From Circinella umbellata (lineage: Eukaryota; Mucoromycota; Mucoromycetes; Mucorales; Lichtheimiaceae): a stretch of DNA of 64,000 nt. The notes below the pieces were generated by a model. The model was not told where the DNA came from and did not search any database. It worked only from the letters and a program-made list of their open reading frames with translations. Every line of letters begins with the position of its first letter. Position 1 is the first letter of the stretch. The position numbers were made by a program, and so were the translations under genes. The DNA lies in the NCBI GenBank assembly GCA_025093555.1, contig JAIWNF010000008.1, forward strand, positions 682,001-746,000, given 5' to 3'. This document shows positions 3,272-19,657 of the stretch, piece after piece.

Positions 3272-5898
3272 ATGTCTAGCGCACCACTTGATATAAATAA
3301 CAATATGTCAGCATCAACAACTGCAACAACTATCAAGATAGAACAAAGCATAGCCATAAAAGAGGATGATATGCATTATCATGACAAAAGTGTCGAACGA
3401 AAAATAGATCATGAAGAAGATACTGGAGTAAAAATTGAAGACATGACTAATTTATCAACAGCATCATCAGCATCATCATCGACTACAGTATCTTCTTATA
3501 ATATTGAAGGTGACAAACGTTCCGTAGAATCATATTATTCAACAGACGATGGCGGATATGGTTGGGTTATCGTTCTCGGGTCGTTTTTAGGCATGTTTAC
3601 AATATATGGTGCAACAAATTGCTGGTAACTACTGAAACAATAGAGATAATTTTGACATTTTCTGCTCAATCAGACATAGCATATAACCAATAGTCAACTA
3701 TTAACTAATTGTTTAAATTTATTTCTACATTTCTTTGTATTTTTTTTTAAAAAAAAAACAACAACAACAAACAAACTAGGGGTAGGTTAATATCATATAC
3801 TATCTTCTTTTTTATGTATTTTACACTGAAATGTGTGATGGTGATGAAAGGAAGAAATTATACTAATGGTATTTCATATGTATACTAATATTACCACCTC
3901 CTTCTTTCTCCTGTCTTACCCTCTCTCTCTTTCTACCCTTGCTTTATCAATCATTCCCTTGATCATGCTCGTGCCCTATATACCCCCTCTTTTTTGTACT
4001 TATTAAATTCTACATAGGTATCATGATTAATCATTACGTTGAAAAGGTATTTTCTGGAGACCGAGGAATAGCCACATCACTTAGTCTTGTTGCTGTATTA
4101 ATCAGTTTTATTGGTGGTGTTTTTGCTCCCATATCAAATATGATCGAATCAATACTTGGTGTTCGTTGTACTCTTTTCATTGCCACTCTTCTCATTTCAG
4201 GCGGATTTGCTGCTGCAGGTTCAGCAACAGAAGTAATTGTTTAAACTGCTTTATTATCTCTCTTTATACGTACTACGTATTATTCAATTGCAACATAACA
4301 TCATTAATAATATTAACACATATATGTACATACTAAATAGGTATGGGAATTATTTCTTGCATTAGGTATCTGCTTTGGTATGGGCTTCTCTATGATGATC
4401 ATGGTATTTATAATAATAATTAACTGTAGCCTACACAGCAACAATTAAATAATTTGTTTTTTTTTGTTCGAGAAAAAAAAATTACATAAGAGTACAAGGG
4501 CTAAAAATAAATATTATAAAATGTCAAACTATCCTAGGTTACTTCAAAAACAGTACCACTATGGTTTAATCGTAGAAGAAGTACAGCAATGGGTATTGTA
4601 GCATCAAGTGGTGGAATAGGTGGTCTCATTTTACCTTTCATAATTACTCCACTGAATGATTCATTAGGTGTCTCATGGTAACTATCTTTTTATTCTGATT
4701 ATTATTATTGTATATACAAATGGAAGAAATGGAATAATAGTTGTCATAAATAAACAATAACCTTATTTTTATTTTTTAACATAATAGGACATTCCGAATC
4801 TTAGCAGGTTGTTTTTTTGTAATCAATCTAATCACAACAATGATTGTCAAAGAAAAGAACCCCCCAACGAAACGAGTTTTCAAGAATCCGTGCGACATTC
4901 TTCAACTTGACTTATTACGTGATATAAACTTTCTTATTTGGTGTTTAGCTGCATTTTTACAGGTGTCTTACATGAATATGCTTTTCTATTTTTTACCATG
5001 TAATGTGTAACATTCTGATTTCATCCCTTAATTTTTTTTTTGTGGTGGCCATTATCATTCATTTATACATTGCTTATTAATATCTTTTTTTTTTATTGAC
5101 GGTATCATTATCTTATGTTGCTGATATTGCCATTATATTTGAATATATATATATATATATATAATAGCATATGCAACACATATCGGCTTAGATACAATGC
5201 ATGGGTCAGTATTAGTGTCCGTTACCGCAGCAACCACTTTTATAGGACGACTTTCTGTGGGGTAAATATCTTAAACATGAAATATCGGTTATTGGTTATA
5301 TACTTGTTATATATATTAATATAATAATGTAAATTTTTATAACACTATTTTTTTTAGAGTACTAGCTGACCGCGCAGGGAATTTGAACATGTGTATTATA
5401 TTCAACCTAATTACATGTTTGGCATCTTTTTTTATTTGGACGTTTGCAAATAACTTTAATATTCTATTATTGTTTGGAATTATTCATGGCTTTTTCGGTG
5501 GATGTTATATTGCCTTGTGTAAGTAAATAACTTCCTTTATGATATGTACGCCGAAGATATAAAAGAGATCGTTGATGATAAAAATGATGATATAAATACA
5601 TATTCTAAATAGTAACAAACAAACAAATGATTTATTACTTTTTATGATTATTATAGTGGCACCTATTGTATGTACCGTTCTCGGTCCAGAAAAATTTTCA
5701 TCTGGGTTCGCATTGGTATCATTTATTGTTGCCCCTGCATACGTAGGACCTAGTATTGCAAGTGCTTTGGAAAATATCACATCCATTGAACCATTCTTGA
5801 TTTTCAAATTATTTACAGGTAGCACTGCGTTTGGAACAGCCATTGTTGTTTTAATTCTTAAACTTCGGATGAAACGACAATTATGGGCAATCATCTAA
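3272..5898 (+). CDS. MFS monocarboxylate-type transporter, paralogue A (493 aa, 9 exons including a 2-nt exon)
   Basis: Major facilitator of the monocarboxylate transporter (MCT/fungal MCH) group, expected at the plasma or organelle membrane; substrate unknown. A Ser/Thr/Glu-rich cytosolic N-terminus of about 85 aa precedes the family signature DDGGYGWVIVLGSF opening TM1. Twelve hydrophobic segments follow, with a loop between the two six-helix halves in exon 6 and the RILAGCFF-type motif at its start. Exons: 3272-3624, 3780-3781, 4018-4232, 4341-4403, 4538-4677, 4788-4999, 5168-5261, 5358-5518, 5657-5898. They sum to 1482 nt, in frame only when the 2-nt exon is included. All other introns are GT..AG, and several show TACTAA-like branch points. 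Its tandem neighbour at 7605 is a paralogue with matching intron positions. Confidence 0.9.
3780..3781 (+). other. 2-nt microexon (GG) of transporter A
   Basis: Exon 1 ends TGC-TG at 3624 before GTAACT, and the next long exon begins GT-ATC-ATG at 4018 after CATAG. Direct joining gives a frameshift and an early TAA. At 3776 the intron reads CTAG|GG|GTAGGT, so including the two G bases gives TGG-GGT-ATC-ATG, the conserved Trp-Gly of this transporter family. Paralogue B has the same arrangement at 8143-8144. Inferred from sequence, not from transcripts. Confidence 0.8.
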
Positions 5899-7604: not shown

Positions 7605-10277
7605 ATGTATGGAAGTAACCAAAAAACAATTTCGCTTGATATGAAGCGAAAAAGAAATGGACTCTTTATGAATCCAGGTAATACACCAAGTACACTGGTT
7701 GCTAATAACCAATCAAACAGTAACGAAAAGAATAGTTTTGTCAGAAATGATAGCTCAGTTGAAGTGCGAAGCATTGTTTCCTCGTGTGGATCGGATAGCT
7801 CATTGTCATCTAGTATAACCAATTCTGCTCTTGAAGATCAACATGGAAAATCTGAATATGATGGTGGTTACCAAGGCTGGTTGGTCGTTTTAGGATCGTC
7901 GTTGGCTTCTTTTACTGTATTTGGAACCATGATGAGTTGGTAAGATTTAAAGATTTTCTATTAATTACGGTACGCAGGTAGTTTTGTTTTTTTAATTGAC
8001 TACAAGCTCAAGCAGTCAATACTATTATTCTTGAACTATTATTAACAACTTGTCATGCCTTCTTTGTACACTTTTTTTTTGCGTTGCTGTTGTTGGCTGC
8101 CGGGGCGCCTTTACAATTATATGATACATAAACATAACACAGGGGTAAATATATTATAATAATAAACTACGTATCCAAATTTTCGTTAATTGAAAATGGT
8201 TTTGACATTCTTTTTTTTCCTTTCTCATACTCGTCCATGTATGAGTATTTTTCTTATTTTCTAAACGCTCCAATTATTATTATTATGATGTAATGTCTAT
8301 TTATAGGTGTCATGCAAAATTATTGTGTGCATTATGTATTCGGAGATACAGATCGAAATCAAGTTCTCATTAGTTTTGTTGGAACGCTTTGTTATTTTAT
8401 ATCGGATGTATTTACACCCATTGCATGTATGCTCGAATCGTTTATTGGCACACAAAAAGCCTTGCTTTTTGGTACCTTTCTTGTTAGCGGAGGACTTCTT
8501 GTATCTGGATCCGCTACAGAGGTAATAAAAAGCGACAATAATAAATAAAAGTTTAAAATATATTATCTAGTATATCAATTATTGAGTAACCTCCCTCTCT
8601 CAACGTTTTAATTTATAGATTTGGCATTTATATTTATCACATGGAATTTGTTTTGGACTCGGTTCATCAATTATATATATTGTAAGCTGCTATTATTGTC
8701 AAGTGAAATTTCATTTTATTATCTCAGCAAACGTTCATTCTTATTTTTACCATTTTGTATATATCTACGTATGTATGTTTTATAAAATACTAGGTTACCA
8801 TGACAACTACAACAGAATGGTTTCAACGAGGAGGAAAAGCAAGTACTGCTACAGGAATAGTAACAAGTAGTATAGGTCTTTCTGGTTTAATTACACCGAT
8901 GATTATGACTGCTTCAAATAGTAAATTAGGTGTTGGCTGGTAATAATAATATCTCTTTCTTTTTTTTTTCAATCCACCAAAACATTATATGCTTAAAAGA
9001 AACAAAAAAATCATTGACTCTATTATAGGACATTCCGAATACTAGGCTTTACATTTTTTGTTGCTAATCTTGTTATGACAATCTTGGTGAAACCGAAAAC
9101 TTTAAAAGAAAATAAAAAATCAAAAAATAATGTGGGTGACGTTATCCAATGGGATTTATTAAAACATGCCAATTTACAAATATTTATCATTTCCGCATTT
9201 TTTCAAGTATTATGCGTTTTTGTACCCTATTTCTTCTTGCCATGTAAGTTATTTTTTTTTCTTTGTATACGTTCTCACTTAATAGAATAAAAAATATACA
9301 TGATTTTTTCTTCTTGAATATGGTGTTTTCTTGAATATGTATGTACTCATACAATTGTATATATGATAGCATATGCTACCTATTTAGGATTGTCTACTAC
9401 ACAAGGCTCTTATTTAGTATCTGTCACTGCTGCTATGAGTTGCCTCGGTAGAATTTCAGTGGGGTATTTTTTTTAAACATTTTGATAGACATTATATAAA
9501 TCATCACCAACATCATAAAAAATTTAGCTGATTAGATGTACTTTTTTTTTTCTAATACCAATTTTTTTTTATCTTTTTCCCTCTGCCTACATTTTTATAC
9601 GTATGCTCTAAATACGTAGAATAATTGCAGATCGTATAGGCAATTTAAATGCAAGCATTATATTTTCCTTGCTTGGCGGATTATCATCGTTATGTATTTG
9701 GACTTTTGCATATAGCTATCCAATATTAATGGTTTATTCAGTAGCTTTTGGATTTTTTGGTGGATCTTATTATACCATTTGTAAGTTTGAATATACACAC
9801 TTTTGCACTTGTTAGCTAGAGTTTATATGTCTAATATAAACATATATAAATTATATATACGTACGTACTCACCCAGAATATATTTTTTCTTATATGTGTT
9901 AGTGGCACCTACTTTAAGAATTATTCTTGGTGCCGAACGATTTCATGCTGGATTTTCTCTTTTAATGGTGATGGTATGTATATACATATGATGTAAATAT
10001 AAATTTATAGAGATTATAAAAAATGATACTGCTTATTGTACAGAGGGAAACAAAATGACACTATTGACGTTATTATTATTATTACTATTTTGGTACTTTA
10101 ATATAGACTTCTCCTGCCATCGTTGGACCGACAATTGCTTCAACAATTGAAAGTATAAGTCCGTTAGAACCTTTCATGAGCTATAAACTTTTTTGTGGAT
10201 GTATATCCATCGTCAGTTGTATTTTTACATTAATTTTAAAGTTACGTCTTCATGCAAATGTATTAGCAAAGATTTGA
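7605..10277 (+). CDS. MFS monocarboxylate-type transporter, paralogue B (490 aa, 10 exons including a 2-nt exon)
   Basis: Tandem paralogue of the transporter at 3272. A polar N-terminus of about 80 aa is followed by YDGGYQGWLVVLGSSL, the MCT-type TM1 signature, then twelve hydrophobic segments. Exons: 7605-7939, 8143-8144, 8307-8521, 8619-8681, 8794-8939, 9029-9243, 9370-9463, 9620-9780, 9903-9973, 10107-10277; total 1473 nt, in frame. Exon lengths 215, 63, 94 and 161 are identical to paralogue A, and every A intron is at the same position. B alone has an extra intron, 9974-10106, inside the last coding block. The N-terminal tails share little, so the cytosolic ends have diverged much more than the membrane core. 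Substrate unknown. Confidence 0.9.
8143..8144 (+). other. 2-nt microexon (GG) of transporter B
   Basis: Exon 1 stops at 7939 (ATG-AGT-TG|GTAAGA) and exon 3 starts at 8307 (TATAG|GT-GTC-ATG). The intervening intron contains ACACAG|GG|GTAAAT at 8137-8150. Using the two G bases yields TGG-GGT-GTC-ATG (Trp-Gly-Val-Met), matching Trp-Gly-Ile-Met in paralogue A. Without them the frame is lost within about 20 codons. Inferred from sequence. Confidence 0.8.
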
Positions 10278-11763: not shown

Positions 11764-12003
11764 AAATTTATAAAAAAAAAAAAAGGAACAGATGATGCTA
11801 ATAGTAGTAATATAAGTAACTTTTTTTTTCTCAGTATTATTACCAACAAAAAAAAGCGATGGGGTGGTAGATCTAATGACGTTAATAATAGAGGACTACT
11901 CCTTGACGCACACAAATATACATGTATATTTTAAGAGAAACATTTTGGGTAGGGGGGATTTCGACAGCTAGTACTTTTTTTTTAATTGTTGTAAAAATTA
12001 ATA

Positions 12004-12165
12004 CAGTGCTTTCAGCGTCAATTGGTCACCTTACCGAAAAAATTGGTCACCTTTCTGAGAACCAATTGGTCACTTTTCTGACTGCCAATTGGTCGCTTCT
12101 CTGAAAACCAATTGGTTGCTTTTTTGAACTCCAATTGGTCACCTCTTCACTGCTTAGAAAAAAAA
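12004..12165 (+). repeat. Array of AATTGGTC-type motifs at the element end
   Basis: Six copies of a motif of the form AATTGGT(C/T)(A/G)C(C/T/G), most preceded by C to give CAATTGG. They are spaced about 20-27 bp apart by variable spacers that usually contain TTCTGA or TTTTGA. The mirror copy lies at about 18677-18838. The arrangement resembles clustered protein-binding sites near a transposon end more than a plain minisatellite. A second CAGTGC-like sequence (TACAGTGCGACGG) follows at 12173. Confidence 0.75.
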
Positions 12166-12624
12166 AACTGGTACAGTGCGACGGTCCATTCAGCGGCTTC
12201 TAAGAACCCAATTATCGTAAAATAAAAAATCAATAAGCGTGAAAAAATTATCCAATTAGCAGTTCTCAAATCTCAATGAGCGTGTACAAAATTTCCAAAT
12301 AGCCTTATTGCGAAAAATCATATATAGCAGACTCGTTCATCCTAAAAGGCGTTTTTTTATTTTAAATACATTTAAATGGACAATTTACGTGGATTTTTTT
12401 TTATTGAAGACGGTTAAGGCGGAATAACTACAGAAGATGATGAAGAGGTCACGGATTACATAACCACAAAGTTCCAGCTCGAAGTGTCATTGCGTGTGAG
12501 AGGAATCGGGGGAGAAATAGAGAGAGAAATATTTGCCTGTGAGAGGAATCGGAGAGGAATCGAGAGGAATCGAAAGAAATAGAGAGAAATATTTGTGTGT
12601 GTGTGTTTTTTTTTTCGCACCATC

Positions 12625-14101
12625 ATGAACGAATATAATGTTGCTTGCGAATTTTGTGAACTACTCTTCAAATCGAAAAAGGTCTTGTCAACTCATAAAT
12701 TTAAGACTCATGTAACGTGTGTAGAAGTTCACATCGAAAAAGGTAAAAAATAGATTGATAGTTTAAAAGATAAACTTGGCATTTGTTTTAAAAAAAATAG
12801 TTATAAGATTAGTTCACAAAGAAGACGATGGATTCCAGTGTCCAAAATGTAAAACGAAACTTAAGAATCCCTCAACATTCAGCAAACATATTAAAGATCA
12901 ACACAATGGTACCTCTAAGCCCATTTCAAAAAATAAACATAAACGTACAAAGGATCAAACAGGCAGCGAAGAAGACAGTGGCTCAGATGAGGAATCAAGC
13001 GTAACTTTAAAGCACCAAAAAATTACAAAACCACAGTTAAATGTGAATACAAGCATTTTGTATTCTTCCAGTTCATCTTTTACCCGTTTGGATCACGACT
13101 CTGCAGTTCTGATGGCCTCCAGTGCTCTATCATTACCAAAGGCTGAACAGGAAAAAAAATTAATGTTAGCAAAAGTTGGTGACTGGAAACCGATATCAGT
13201 TATCACGAAGACAGGAAAAGCATATAGTGTTATCGCCTCGCAGGATGTGATCAAAGAGCTATTGTCAGATCAACCATCAGGAGAATGGAAACTTCCAAAA
13301 CCACCAATCAATAGAGAAACACAAACGTTTGATTCTCCAAACGACCTTTTAACTCACATCATGTATTCAAGCCCATTGAAACACCATCTATCAACTGCTA
13401 AATACGTTGAACTGACTAAAGACTTGGTCAAAAACATCAACCGTGACTGGACTGTTTTTCCTCAGTTGCGATTTGCAACATCAAAATTGTTTGCAGGTGC
13501 AATTCTCATGGATCAAGCATCGGCACTGCTTATCAATGCTGTCGAACCATATGGACGACTAAAAGCAACAGATGCTCACTATGAGCATCGCTTGTCTGTA
13601 AGTCATGACCAAAGCTCATTTCCAACAGAAGAGACTGAGTATGGATGGATTAAATTCGTGAGTGTCATCGAAGATAATGTCAGGAAACTAAAAATTGGAA
13701 CCCTTGTCTCGAACTTATTGGTCACTTCCAGCGTGAGACTGGACAGTGATTCTATTAAATCAAAAGGATTTGTAAACATGGGACCAGAAACACCTATGTT
13801 TGCCCCTACCACAACAACCAAAATGTATATCAATGTTGAATCGTTAAAACATGCGAGACAGCTGATTGAAGATGAATCGTATGAGAGTGTGGAGCAATCT
13901 CACTTGTTCTCACAACTACGGCAAGTGCGCTCTAAGTTTCATTGCTTATCAACTTACACACTGTGTCGCTCGTTTTCAAACCTTGCCATGGACATCGCAC
14001 ACCGCCCGTATACAATTTGGACTATGTACAGGATTTTGCATTCATTTCCGGACACAACCTTCAATTTTTTCGCTTATAAGAGTAATTCTTTTCGCTTATG
14101 A
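12625..14101 (+). CDS. C2H2 zinc-finger protein carried by the element (left arm), 3' end disrupted by MITE
   Basis: Exon 1 12625-12742, intron with GTAAAA donor and AATAG acceptor, exon 2 from 12801. The spliced frame is 472 aa, of which the last 25 or so residues are read from the nested MITE. Finger 1 is split by nothing: CEFCELLFKSKKVLSTHKFK followed by H. Finger 2 in exon 2 is CPKCKTKLKNPSTFSKHIKD followed by QH. An acidic/Ser nuclear-type linker (about 70-110) leads to a folded region of about 280 aa without a motif I recognise. There is no DDE, RT or tyrosine-recombinase signature. Without the 481-bp insertion the frame would end 14 codons beyond the insertion site. It is probably an element-encoded DNA- or RNA-binding accessory protein. 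Confidence 0.6.
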
Positions 14102-14509
14102 TGTTGATTTTTTTTCGCTTATGATATGCTATATTTTTCGCTTATGATGGCGGTGTTTTTCGCTTATGATAGCATTAATTTTCACTTATGATATATGATA
14201 CTTGGTTAATCATGTAAAAGCAGATGCAGCAAATATTAAAGAAAAATTGGTATTAGTCGCGAAAAACTCCCCCTATCATTTATGTAAATCTCTTGGACCT
14301 CATAAGTAAGAAATTATATAGGTATTACAAGCGAAAATTAATGCTATTATAAGCAAAAAACACCGCCATCATAAGCGAAAAACATAGCATATCATAAGTG
14401 AAAAACACCGCCATCATAAGCGAAAAATATAGCATATCATAAGCGAAAAAAATCAACATCATAAGCGAAAAAATTGAAGGTTGTGTCCGGAAATGAATGC
14501 AAAATCCTG
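14029..14509. mobile_element. Nested 481-bp MITE-like palindromic element (left arm)
   Basis: Begins CAGGATTTTGCATTCATTTC and ends with the reverse complement, flanked by TA (14027-28 and 14510-11). This is a TA target duplication with terminal inverted repeats of nearly 200 bp. Each half is built of repeated TTTTCGCTTATGAT units (about six per side, inverted on the other side) with a unique core of about 130 bp (14200-14320). No coding capacity. It interrupts the zinc-finger gene's exon 2. TA duplication and CAG..CTG ends fit a Tc1/mariner-type non-autonomous element. Confidence 0.85.
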
Positions 14510-14511
14510 TA

Positions 14512-14918
14512 TGATTACGATTTGGATACCTATGTCAAACAAAGAACGCAGTAGATGCATTCGATGGCGAATTGGATGGCTACCAGGTGGAAAACACAAA
14601 ACCTGTCTTACTTGCCAATCCCATACATTCACTAAACACCATGCGATACAATGTCTTCAAATGCACCGTCGCCTCAATCTCAATTCCAACCGAACTGACG
14701 ATCCGCTTTCATTTATACTTAACAACATTCCAAAATCTAAACCTAAATCACCCCGACGAATACAGTATTTAAAACGTATATGGCCAATTGTCTGTCAAAT
14801 ACTTTCAGAATTAGACGCACACCAGCATCCAACATCGAATCAACAACAATACAAAGACTTGAACCCAGGACAGGCATTCATTCATTGGATAGATCCACCC
14901 CCTCCTGAGCCGGACTAG
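14512..14918 (+). pseudogene. LINE-like reverse transcriptase C-terminal fragment (left arm)
   Basis: The frame ending at 14918 contains RCIRWRIGWLPGGKHKTCLTC, then a Cys/His-rich block (C..C..H..TKHHAIQCLQMHRRL), then DPLSFILNNIPKSKPKSP and a Trp-Pro-Ile-Cys segment. From memory this resembles the extreme C-terminus of non-LTR retrotransposon polymerases in Mucorales; I could not check it. No endonuclease or RT domain lies upstream in the arm, so only the tail survives. It is in a different frame from the zinc-finger exon and its apparent start lies in the MITE. A short 3' region and a poly(A) run (14972-14986) follow, as expected for a retroelement 3' end. Confidence 0.5.
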
Positions 14919-14986
14919 GTAACTATAACATTCTTTTTTTAAATAGTACCCTGTACATTATGAATTCATATAAAAAAAAAAAAAAA

Positions 14987-15845
14987 TTGAAATTAGAAAT
15001 ACTCGACATTTGAAGGTATAAAGAGAAGAGAGATTATTATATTTTATTTAGTTTATATATATTTTAAAAAAGGAAAATAAAGCGCGGCTCTTGGAGCCTG
15101 TACCACATTTTCAGACTTCGCTTCGTCAATAATCGTATTGACAAAAAGTTATGTTAAAGAGATATGGAGACACGTATTTGTTTTAATTTAACAATTCGTT
15201 GGATATAAAAAGATGATATCAACTATACAATGTAGTATGTAATCCGATGGATAAAAATAGTAAAACTAATTGCGATAATCGGTTTTAAAAAAGTTATGAT
15301 TGCAAATGGCTTGTTGACAATTTTCTTGACATATTGTTCGCTTTTTGAATAGAAGTTGTCATGTTTTCGGCAAGCTTTTTTAAAAGTCTATCTAAAGAAT
15401 AGTTGTTGATGATGGTGACATTTCCTTCTTTGGCTAAATCGATAATATCAGCTACTATTTCTTTTGTTTGTCCATCTTTCAAAGTGCCAAATGCAGAAGA
15501 TACTTCTGTTATGTTGAATTTCGCATTGATTCCATTTTTTATGACAGAAAGAGCGACAAGCTGAAAAAATCTTGAGCTCTTCTTCGCTGCGGAGTCTACT
15601 TGTTGGGGCGAATCGTAATCATACGATGAAATTTTTTGGTTTTATTTAACCTCTCCCTTAAACACGTCGTCAGGTTTGACATTTTTGTTTGACACAGTTC
15701 TTAAAAGTATAAAGGGAATAAAACCCCTGTTGTGTTACAGGGAAAAGGTCATAGGAATAAGGAAGTGGGTACAATAAGAGTCATTTGTTCGGTTTATGTA
15801 CGTGAAAGATTCATTGTGATACTAAAGTAGGGGGATACATAATAG
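14987..15845. other. Unique spacer between the two arms, with a remnant minus-strand frame
   Basis: About 860 bp with no copy in the arms. On the minus strand an uninterrupted frame of about 105 codons (about 15640 to 15294) reads coherently, e.g. SSRFFQLVALSVIKNGINAK and EIVADIIDLAKEGNVTIINN. It has no ATG at its start and is preceded by a stop. It may be a fragment of a captured host gene or of a lost element gene. I do not recognise it. Confidence 0.4.
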
Positions 15846-15922
15846 TTTTTTTTTTTTTTTTTTTTTTTTATATGAATTCATAATGTACAGGGTACTATTT
15901 AAAAAAAGAATGTTATAGTTAC

Positions 15923-16330
15923 CTAGTCCGGCTCAGGAGGGGGTGGATCTATCCAATGAATGAATGCCTGTCCTGGGTTCAAGTCTTTGTATTGTTGTTG
16001 ATTCGATGTTGGATGCTGGTGTGCGTCTAATTCTGAAAGTATTTGACAGACAATTGGCCATATACGTTTTAAATACTGTATTCGTCGGGGTGATTTAGGT
16101 TTAGATTTTGGAATGTTGTTAAGTATAAATGAAAGCGGATCGTCAGTTCGGTTGGAATTGAGATTGAGGCGACGGTGCATTTGAAGACATTGTATCGCAT
16201 GGTGTTTAGTGAATGTATGGGATTGGCAAGTAAGACAGGTTTTGTGTTTTCCACCTGGTAGCCATCCAATTCGCCATCGAATGCATCTACTGCGTTCTTT
16301 GTTTGACATAGGTATCCAAATCGTAATCAT
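15923..16330 (-). pseudogene. LINE-like reverse transcriptase C-terminal fragment (right arm)
   Basis: Exact mirror of the left-arm fragment, with an identical predicted protein (WLPGGK...C..C...TKHHAIQC...HRRL). It is followed on the minus strand by the same 3' region and a longer poly(A) (seen as T24 at 15846-15869). Poly(A) length is the most visible difference between the arms, A15 against A24. Confidence 0.5.
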
Positions 16331-16331
16331 A

Positions 16332-16812
16332 CAGGATTTTGCATTCATTTCCGGACACAACCTTCAATTTTTTCGCTTATGATGTTGATTTTTTTCGCTT
16401 ATGATATGCTATATTTTTCGCTTATGATGGCGGTGTTTTTCACTTATGATATGCTATGTTTTTCGCTTATGATGGCGGTGTTTTTTGCTTATAATAGCAT
16501 TAATTTTCGCTTGTAATACCTATATAATTTCTTACTTATGAGGTCCAAGAGATTTACATAAATGATAGGGGGAGTTTTTCGCGACTAATACCAATTTTTC
16601 TTTAATATTTGCTGCATCTGCTTTTACATGATTAACCAAGTATCATATATCATAAGTGAAAATTAATGCTATCATAAGCGAAAAACACCGCCATCATAAG
16701 CGAAAAATATAGCATATCATAAGCGAAAAAAAATCAACATCATAAGCGAAAAGAATTACTCTTATAAGCGAAAAAATTGAAGGTTGTGTCCGGAAATGAA
16801 TGCAAAATCCTG
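16332..16812. mobile_element. Nested 481-bp MITE-like element (right arm copy)
   Basis: Mirror copy of the element at 14029-14509, at the identical insertion point and with the same TA flanks and TTTTCGCTTATGAT arrays. The insertion therefore predates duplication of the arm. Confidence 0.85.
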
Positions 16813-18217
16813 TACATAGTCCAAATTGTATACGGGCGGTGTGCGATGTCCATGGCAAGGTTTGAAAACGAGCGACACAGTGTGTAAGTTGATAAGCAAT
16901 GAAACTTAGAGCGCACTTGCCGTAGTTGTGAGAACAAGTGAGATTGCTCCACACTCTCATACGATTCATCTTCAATCAGCTGTCTCGCATGTTTTAACGA
17001 TTCAACATTGATATACATTTTGGTTGTTGTGGTAGGGGCAAACATAGGTGTTTCTGGTCCCATGTTTACAAATCCTTTTGATTTAATAGAATCACTGTCC
17101 AGTCTCACGCTGGAAGTGACCAATAAGTTCGAGACAAGGGTTCCAATTTTTAGTTTCCTGACATTATCTTCGATGACACTCACGAATTTAATCCATCCAT
17201 ACTCAGTCTCTTCTGTTGGAAATGAGCTTTGGTCATGACTTACAGACAAGCGATGCTCATAGTGAGCATCTGTTGCTTTTAGTCGTCCATATGGTTCGAC
17301 AGCATTGATAAGCAGTGCCGATGCTTGATCCATGAGAATTGCACCTGCAAACAATTTTGATGTTGCAAATCGCAACTGAGGAAAAACAGTCCAGTCACGG
17401 TTGATGTTTTTGACCAAGTCTTTAGTCAGTTCAACGTATTTAGCAGTTGATAGATGGTGTTTCAATGGGCTTGAATACATGATGTGAGTTAAAAGGTCGT
17501 TTGGAGAATCAAACGTTTGTGTTTCTCTATTGATTGGTGGTTTTGGAAGTTTCCATTCTCCTGATGGTTGATCTGACAATAGCTCTTTGATCACATCCTG
17601 CGAGGCGATAACACTATATGCTTTTCCTGTCTTCGTGATAACTGATATCGGTTTCCAGTCACCAACTTTTGCTAACATTAATTTTTTTTCCTGTTCAGCC
17701 TTTGGTAATGATAGAGCACTGGAGGCCATCAGAACTGCAGAGTCGTGATCCAAACGGGTAAAAGATGAACTGGAAGAATACAAAATGCTTGTATTCACAT
17801 TTAACTGTGGTTTTGTAATTTTTTGGTGCTTTAAAGTTACGCTTGATTCCTCATCTGAGCCACTGTCTTCTTCGCTGCCTGTTTGATCCTTTGTACGTTT
17901 ATGTTTATTTTTTGAAATGGGCTTAGAGGTACCATTGTGTTGATCTTTAATATGTTTGCTGAATGTTGAGGGATTCTTAAGTTTCGTTTTACATTTTGGA
18001 CACTGGAATCCATCGTCTTCTTTGTGAACTAATCTTATAACTATTTTTTTTTAAAACAAATGCCAAGTTTATCTTTTAAACTATCAATCTATTTTTTACC
18101 TTTTTCGATGTGAACTTCTACACACGTTACATGAGTCTTAAATTTATGAGTTGACAAGACCTTTTTCGATTTGAAGAGTAGTTCACAAAATTCGCAAGCA
18201 ACATTATATTCGTTCAT
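16740..18217 (-). CDS. C2H2 zinc-finger protein carried by the element (right arm)
   Basis: Mirror of the left-arm gene: exon 1 18217..18100, exon 2 from 18040. The predicted protein is identical. The extra base in the intron homopolymer is outside coding sequence, so both copies remain open to the stop supplied by the MITE. The two genes are convergent. Transcripts of both would be complementary across nearly their whole length, or would fold into a long hairpin if read through the spacer. Confidence 0.6.
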
Positions 18218-18840
18218 GATGGTGCGAAAAAAAAAACACACACACACAAATATTTCTCTCTATTTCTTTCGATTCCTCTCGATTCCTCTCCGATTCCTCT
18301 CACAGGCAAATATTTCTCTCTCTATTTCTCCCCCGATTCCTCTCACACGCAATGACACTTCGAGCTGGAACTTTGTGGTTATGTAATCCGTGACCTCTTC
18401 ATCATCTTCTGTAGTTATTCCGCCTTAACCGTCTTCAATAAAAAAAAATCCACGTAAATTGTCCATTTAAATGTATTTAAAATAAAAAAACGCCTTTTAG
18501 GATGAACGAGTCTGCTATATATGATTTTTCGCAATAAGGCTATTTGGAAATTTTGTACACGCTCATTGAGATTTGAGAACTGCTAATTGGATAATTTTTT
18601 CACGCTTATTGATTTTTTATTTTACGATAATTGGGTTCTTAGAAGCCGCTGAATGGACCGTCGCACTGTACCAGTTTTTTTTTTCTAAGCAGTGAAGAGG
18701 TGACCAATTGGAGTTCAAAAAAGCAACCAATTGGTTTTCAGAGAAGCGACCAATTGGCAGTCAGAAAAGTGACCAATTGGTTCTCAGAAAGGTGACCAAT
18801 TTTTTCGGTAAGGTGACCAATTGACGCTGGAAGCACTGTA

Positions 18841-19657
18841 TCGACTTATAATTATATATATACAAATTGAGAAATCAGATGAGCAGTTATTATATCAACT
18901 AATGTATTGTGAGAGTCAACGACAACTGAATCAAAAACCTTCCTTCTTTCCCAGTGTTAAAATTAACTAGCACCGCGTTCAACACTTTACTAAAAAAGAT
19001 TGCTTATAAACAAGAACTTCCATAGTAACCATATGAATAGCGTGTTTTTTTACACATAGGTTTATTGATAAGAATTATTTCTCTCTTTCTATATTATTCG
19101 TGAACTTTGTTTCCCAAATTATAAAGTTGATCATGAAGGAATGTCATTATTATTGATTAAAAAAAGAAAATAAAAATAAAGGGAGATTCATCTTGAAATA
19201 ATGTACAAGAGGGTAAATTATAGTGACCTGCATGACGTTTACTTTATTCAGCAGAAGTATCAGTTATAACTTGTGATGTTTTTTATTCTTCGTCATTTTG
19301 TAGACCATTTTAAAAAAGTTACTTTTAAATAAAAGGTTCTGAAAATGACGTTTACTTTGCATTTTTTTTTTTCGCAAACAATAATTATATTCTTTTAGCG
19401 GGGTAGAGGGACTGCCTTATAATTTTGATTTGACATATAACAAAAAAAAAACATATTACATTTTTCTTCAATATATTTATATATAATATAATATAATTCT
19501 CTAGAATCCTATCTATCTTTATTCTTTTTTTTTTAATATGAAAATAAAAGTCATTGACAACAAAAGAAAGAACAAAGTGAAATACAATTATTGTTGAGCA
19601 GCGGGAGTTGGGGGGTTGGGTTAGGTTGTAGTTAGGTAGGAAAGGTATATATATATA
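18841..19657. other. Intergenic region, nothing recognised
   Basis: AT-rich DNA between the right end of the inverted-repeat element and the 3' end of the MCP1-like gene, with homopolymers and short TA runs only. Confidence 0.5.

Follow-up and report, generated by a model that had tools for sequence, protein, structure and literature searches.

Ultra-short constitutive exons are already known. The Fusarium gene CYP621A has been reported to carry a constitutive exon of 1 nt (PMC12940212), and an earlier report of exons of 2-5 nt in Arabidopsis, Drosophila and human is cited in the same article. Constitutive 1-nt exons have also been described in the plant genes APC11 (PMC4674806) and VPS55 (PMC8831610). 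The exon analysed here, found in Circinella umbellata (Mucorales, Lichtheimiaceae), resembles that of CYP621A as presented in PMC12940212: both are fungal, both consist of an ultra-short stretch of G that is flanked by AG and GT and lies within a conserved motif, and both were inferred from the reading frame with an intron-free relative as the yardstick. CYP621A was confirmed by reads, whereas the present exon is deduced from sequence. Moreover, the Fusarium exon is 1 nt long and is described for the orthologues of one gene in Fusarium, whereas here 2 nt are found at 23 loci of one Mucorales genome, and the group includes a gene with one intron. The plant exons are likewise described as ancient and overlooked by annotation, and copies without the flanking introns exist (PMC4674806, PMC8831610). 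They differ in being 1 nt long, in occurring in plants and in unrelated genes, and in being backed by cDNA, minigenes or RT-PCR in these reports (PMC4674806, PMC8831610), whereas our case is built on genomic sequence. What is unusual here is that such an exon recurs in many paralogues of one large group, one member of which has a single intron. No report of a 2-nt exon in Mucorales was found in the open-licence literature.

Positions are given in the window, the 64-kb stretch of DNA that was analysed (C189:682001-746000 of a 50.8-Mb assembly of 210 contigs). Gene A (3272-5898, forward strand) is a predicted MCT-type MFS transporter of 493 aa. The PF07690 domain scored above the cut-off in its product as well as in P0161, a public C. 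umbellata protein related to A, and a search of solved structures made with P0161 gave human MCT8, MCT10, MCT2 and MCT1 as the best matches. The first long exon of gene A ends in phase 2 inside a Trp codon (..TGC TG/GTAACT; slashes mark splice junctions), the second long exon opens with GT ATC ATG and is preceded by CTACATAG, and the stretch between them (3625-4017) holds CTAG/GG/GTAGGT, much as an earlier note on this DNA had described. When the long exons are joined directly, the frame breaks after Trp (..NCWYHD, followed by a stop). With GG included, the total length of the nine exons is 1482 nt, without an internal stop. Because the long exons are in frame only with two added bases, and exactly one AG/GG/GT lies between them, GG is read as an exon of 2 nt. 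It is very probably a constitutive exon between two ordinary introns of gene A. The claim of the earlier note that transporter A needs this exon for its frame was thus borne out, and the restoration of Trp-Gly by GG is the best reading, the same exon being present at 22 other loci of the genome. The coordinates are listed in Table 1.

Table 1. Exons and introns of gene A and of the 5' part of gene B, in positions of the window.
Feature	Position	Strand	Basis
Gene A exon 1, 353 nt, phase 2 end inside Trp codon (TG/)	3272..3624	+	exon arithmetic; end also picked by spliced alignment
Gene A intron 1, 155 nt, GTAACT...AACTAG	3625..3779	+	sequence reading
Gene A 2-nt microexon GG (Trp codon base 3 and Gly codon base 1)	3780..3781	+	exon arithmetic, spliced alignment, 22 further loci alike
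Gene A intron 2, 236 nt, GTAGGT...ACATAG	3782..4017	+	sequence reading
Gene A exon 3, 215 nt, start GT ATC ATG	4018..4232	+	sequence reading and spliced alignment
Gene A exon 4, 63 nt	4341..4403	+	sequence reading and spliced alignment
Gene A exon 5, 140 nt	4538..4677	+	sequence reading and spliced alignment
Gene A exon 6, 212 nt	4788..4999	+	sequence reading and spliced alignment
Gene A exon 7, 94 nt	5168..5261	+	sequence reading and spliced alignment
Gene A exon 8, 161 nt	5358..5518	+	sequence reading and spliced alignment
Gene A exon 9, 242 nt including stop	5657..5898	+	sequence reading; spliced alignment stops short of the stop codon
Gene B exon 1, phase 2 end TG/	7605..7939	+	sequence reading
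Gene B intron 1, 203 nt, GTAAGA...ACACAG	7940..8142	+	sequence reading
Gene B 2-nt microexon GG, same codon pair as in A	8143..8144	+	sequence reading and spliced alignment
Gene B intron 2, 162 nt, GTAAAT...TTATAG	8145..8306	+	sequence reading
Gene B exon 3, 215 nt, start GT GTC ATG; then seven more exons up to 10277	8307..8521	+	spliced alignment and exon arithmetic

A paralogue, gene B, is located 1.7 kb downstream of gene A and reads TG/GTAAGA ... ACACAG/GG/GTAAAT ... TTATAG/GTGTC at the same codon pair; its ten exons sum to 1473 nt and encode 490 aa with a single terminal stop. One genome search with protein A yielded at least 126 exon matches to MCT-like loci, which were grouped by eye, and the resulting set comprised 41 loci (A, B and 39 further loci). 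Of the 41, 23 (A, B, L044-L048, L050, L051, L057, L058, L066, L068-L075 and L077-L079) had two introns and the 2-nt exon at the same Trp-Gly codon pair, which belongs to the first membrane helix. Among the remaining loci, spliced alignment left the interval from the preceding Trp or Tyr codon to the Gly codon free of introns in 15 and gave no resolved structure at the Trp-Gly site in L076. The GG exon has the sequence features of a constitutive ultra-short microexon (an internal coding exon of 1-15 nt): it is needed for the frame and for a conserved motif, it lies between the AG and GT sites of two introns whose lengths are workable, with a slightly weaker intronic donor part, and it is kept among related genes beyond chance. 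The statement of the earlier note that exons of this size are near the physical limit needs qualifying, as constitutive exons of 1 nt are published (PMC4674806, PMC8831610, PMC12940212).

The hexamer AGGGGT occurred seven times per strand in the window. In the combined introns of 22 tabulated loci it was found exactly once in 21 and was absent from L067; with L078 added, 22 loci had a single AGGGGT, and with L070, which also has one, 23. Dinucleotide shuffling of those 22 combined introns predicted 0.47 occurrences in total versus 22 seen, although these introns had been picked for having AGGGGT and the fair count is 23 with and 1 without in the 24-member group. In the same 22 introns, AG/NN/GT sites formed by the other 15 dinucleotides together numbered only five. 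The letters GG follow from the Trp and Gly codons, and the identity of the dinucleotide by itself is therefore weak proof. Spliced alignment with a Mucorales profile, which is not neutral as the profile contains Trp-Gly proteins, recovered the GG exon in A, B and 18 others (20 of the 23 loci); it was missed in L069, L073 and L078, and these three rest on anchoring. When the GG acceptor of gene B was forbidden, the alignment took another 2-nt exon (8013-8014) with a score of 1186 versus 1199. No 2-nt exon was placed by spliced alignment at any other junction of the examined loci; a dubious 5-nt exon was placed in L052.

Some loci of this group deviate from the usual form. Intron 1 of L070 (C1:1098000-1100300, minus strand) is 1112 nt long, about ten times the usual length, with the 2-nt exon and its sites kept. 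A GC donor was observed in intron 1 of L075 (TG/GCAAGT) and another on the 3' side of exon 4 of the L058 gene (C138:437165-437227; TTAT/GCAAGT).

The public protein P0161 matches the model of L058 that includes the 2-nt exon, all 448 of 448 compared residues being identical, and the genomic bases that follow (GTG TAG) supply the last residue and the stop. The uninterrupted sequence WGVIQ was absent from all three forward frames of the L058 locus, and a genome search found no intron-free copy of P0161 elsewhere, the best matches being on C138, to that gene and its neighbour. Exons of 2 nt are believed to be rarely predicted without transcript data, and on this ground we infer that the P0161 model had RNA support.

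Gene A might instead contain one intron only, with exon 1 ending at 3608 (G/GTGCAA) and joined straight to 4018, so that the protein would lack six residues of helix 1 (..TIYGIM..). The join 3608^4018 is canonical (GT-AG), in frame and, in the range searched, the only GT-AG join of this kind for A. Spliced alignment reverted to it once the microexon acceptor was forbidden, with a score of 1139, which is below the 1156 obtained with the GG exon. Several public Mucorales proteins (e.g., P0001 and P0011) are annotated with a single-intron join, and the C. umbellata protein P0162, from the L047 gene, is annotated with an alternative junction, a single-intron join at -4 (ASR/IMQ) by which Trp-Gly is dropped. 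However, single introns would require differing donors in the paralogues (-4, -10, -16 or elsewhere) with differing losses of residues, whereas outgroup paralogues that lack an intron at this place retain the residues lost in this way, and the same stretch of P0161, including the Trp-Gly site, aligns gap-free to human MCT8. A single intron would also leave the AG/GG/GT of all 23 loci unexplained, and we regard it as very unlikely. Single introns of exact length (GT-AG, GC-AG or AT-AC) were searched for in the 23 loci and rejected: nine solutions were obtained in seven loci (one GT-AG in L069, one GC-AG and seven AT-AC), none with Trp-Gly.

The frameshift on direct joining of the long exons would also be expected from a frame-broken pseudogene or an assembly error at the site, but the reading frame stays open through the remaining exons of A, whose phases match, and 22 other loci are arranged alike at the same place, which makes this highly improbable. 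A classical recursive (ratchet) splice site leaves no exon. The site of gene A resembles such sites in that the acceptor is followed directly by the donor and stepwise removal is possible; unlike them, it retains 2 nt (AG/GG/GT), which are needed for the frame and hence required in the mRNA, and its donor is complete ahead of the first splice. The earlier note had proposed that the first splice regenerates the donor GTAGGT. This is not required, as the three preceding bases are GGG before (AG/GG) as well as after (TG/GG) removal of intron 1. Fungal stwintrons, as described in PMC5639578, are comparable in that tightly packed introns need consecutive splicing, and two consecutive splicing events would likewise take place close by in gene A. 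In a stwintron, however, the inner intron interrupts one of the splice motifs of the outer one, namely its donor, acceptor or branch point, whereas here donors and acceptors are complete and uninterrupted before splicing and two coding bases stay. A stwintron or a zero-length recursive site in place of the 2-nt exon is thus extremely improbable.

With GG as an exon, the two flanking introns were compared with 173 other introns of at most 300 nt, those near the Trp-Gly site being left out. The median lengths of the two halves in 22 loci were 103.5 and 98.5 nt, versus 102 nt in the comparison set. Whole donors scored 8.43 and 7.87 (7.53 in other introns) and acceptors 6.72 and 6.53 (5.61 in other introns). 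The intronic part of the donors scored lower (5.91 and 5.73 versus 6.47), the totals being higher only with the exon bases. Branch-point matches were weak for all introns scanned. By these measures each half is rather like an ordinary intron, and it may be recognised as a separate one. Intron 1 ends in a 3' splice site that overlaps the 5' splice site of intron 2, and joint occupancy would hardly be possible. Because AG, GG and GT are adjacent and both sites could hardly be bound at once, the introns would be removed one after another, although intron 2 could equally go first; either order would leave a normal remaining site (TGGG/GT or AG/GGGT). Stepwise removal would thus be reasonable by geometry, and the loci would offer many natural replicates for studying how the spliceosome deals with 3' and 5' splice sites that overlap.

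Skipping of the exon would lead to a stop 4 to 22 codons past Trp in 22 of the 23 loci and after 101 codons in L057, but any frameshift gives such early stops by chance and they are no evidence of regulation. Retention of intron 2 would lead to a stop 3 to 50 codons on. It seems rather unlikely that the 2-nt exon and its introns have been kept across Mucorales as a gate, in which ordered two-step splicing would yield the full-length transporter and skipping or half-splicing an early stop. If true, the gate would be one splice-level on/off switch common to the whole transporter clade.

The relationship of the loci was analysed with an unrooted tree built from all loci but L076 (40 of 41; 235 columns, LG+F+G4; N-terminal ends of L069, L073 and L078 placed manually). 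The 23 loci together with L067 formed one group against the other 16 (ultrafast bootstrap 98), and L067 grouped with L047, L066 and L072 (ultrafast bootstrap 98). L067 has one intron and an exon of 217 nt (2 + 215) in which GG is fused to the next exon, as expected from the loss of intron 2 alone. The outgroup locus L059 has a single intron at the same place, after TG, and GGGTGTT opens its next exon. The two-intron structure probably arose once, ahead of the duplications of this group, and its origin was perhaps early in Mucorales. The finding would extend the known constitutive microexons to one of 2 nt that an early-diverging order of fungi has retained across a gene group of two dozen members, and the one-intron genes illustrate a way in which an exon of this kind can be undone.

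The evidence from other Mucorales is at the protein level. The public protein searches gave 59 matches, the best 120 of 215 and the best 120 of 249; among the matches listed, 167 public relatives were classed by script, with P0029-P0059 (31 proteins) left out. Among the matches listed, Trp-Gly was kept in 46 of the 167 (one as Trp-Cys, which the script allowed), the upstream half of helix 1 was missing in 69, and 52 of the 98 that have this half were broken at the Trp-Gly column. The broken proteins, among the matches listed, came from Mucor, Rhizopus, Absidia, Lichtheimia, Phycomyces, Cunninghamella and Apophysomyces. A 2-nt exon would account for the frequent mis-annotation of helix 1 in this transporter clade of Mucorales. 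In 29 of the 69 proteins that lack the upstream half, among the matches listed, the first residue is the Met right after the junction (e.g., within P0107-P0118). Several of these Met-start proteins stem from ORF calling on contigs, so that in their genes the downstream introns seem to have been lost while the break at the Trp-Gly site stays, and many relatives seem to have no intron left downstream of this site.

Moreover, the C. minor protein P0102 reads WGKRINQENV, and retention of intron 2 in the similar locus L066 would read WGKQVNQEV, which suggests AG/GG/GTAAG in the P0102 gene too. Trp-Gly is kept in P0009 and P0072, whose source is given as 'lgn', which we take to be assembled sequencing runs, and whose contigs barely exceed the coding region. 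Both are transcript-like in look but were not counted as proof. Scans of viral and prokaryote contigs with one Rhizopus protein revealed no relatives, and the uninterrupted pattern TGGGGTRTYATGCAAGA had no match in the genome, the pattern being too narrow to mean much.

Elsewhere in the window, a near-perfect inverted repeat was observed at 11992-18850, with 868 nt in the middle. Its arms at 12786-14986 and 15855-18055 are 2201 nt long and 100% complementary, and those at 11992-12797 and 18045-18850 are 806 nt long and 99% complementary. The repeat may represent a mobile element of recent origin or else a palindromic duplication. Finally, a gene on the minus strand at 1-1143 seems, as read by eye, to start with MSKKRQLTLSSFF.., which we take to resemble the N-terminal PCNA-binding motif of a mismatch-repair protein.
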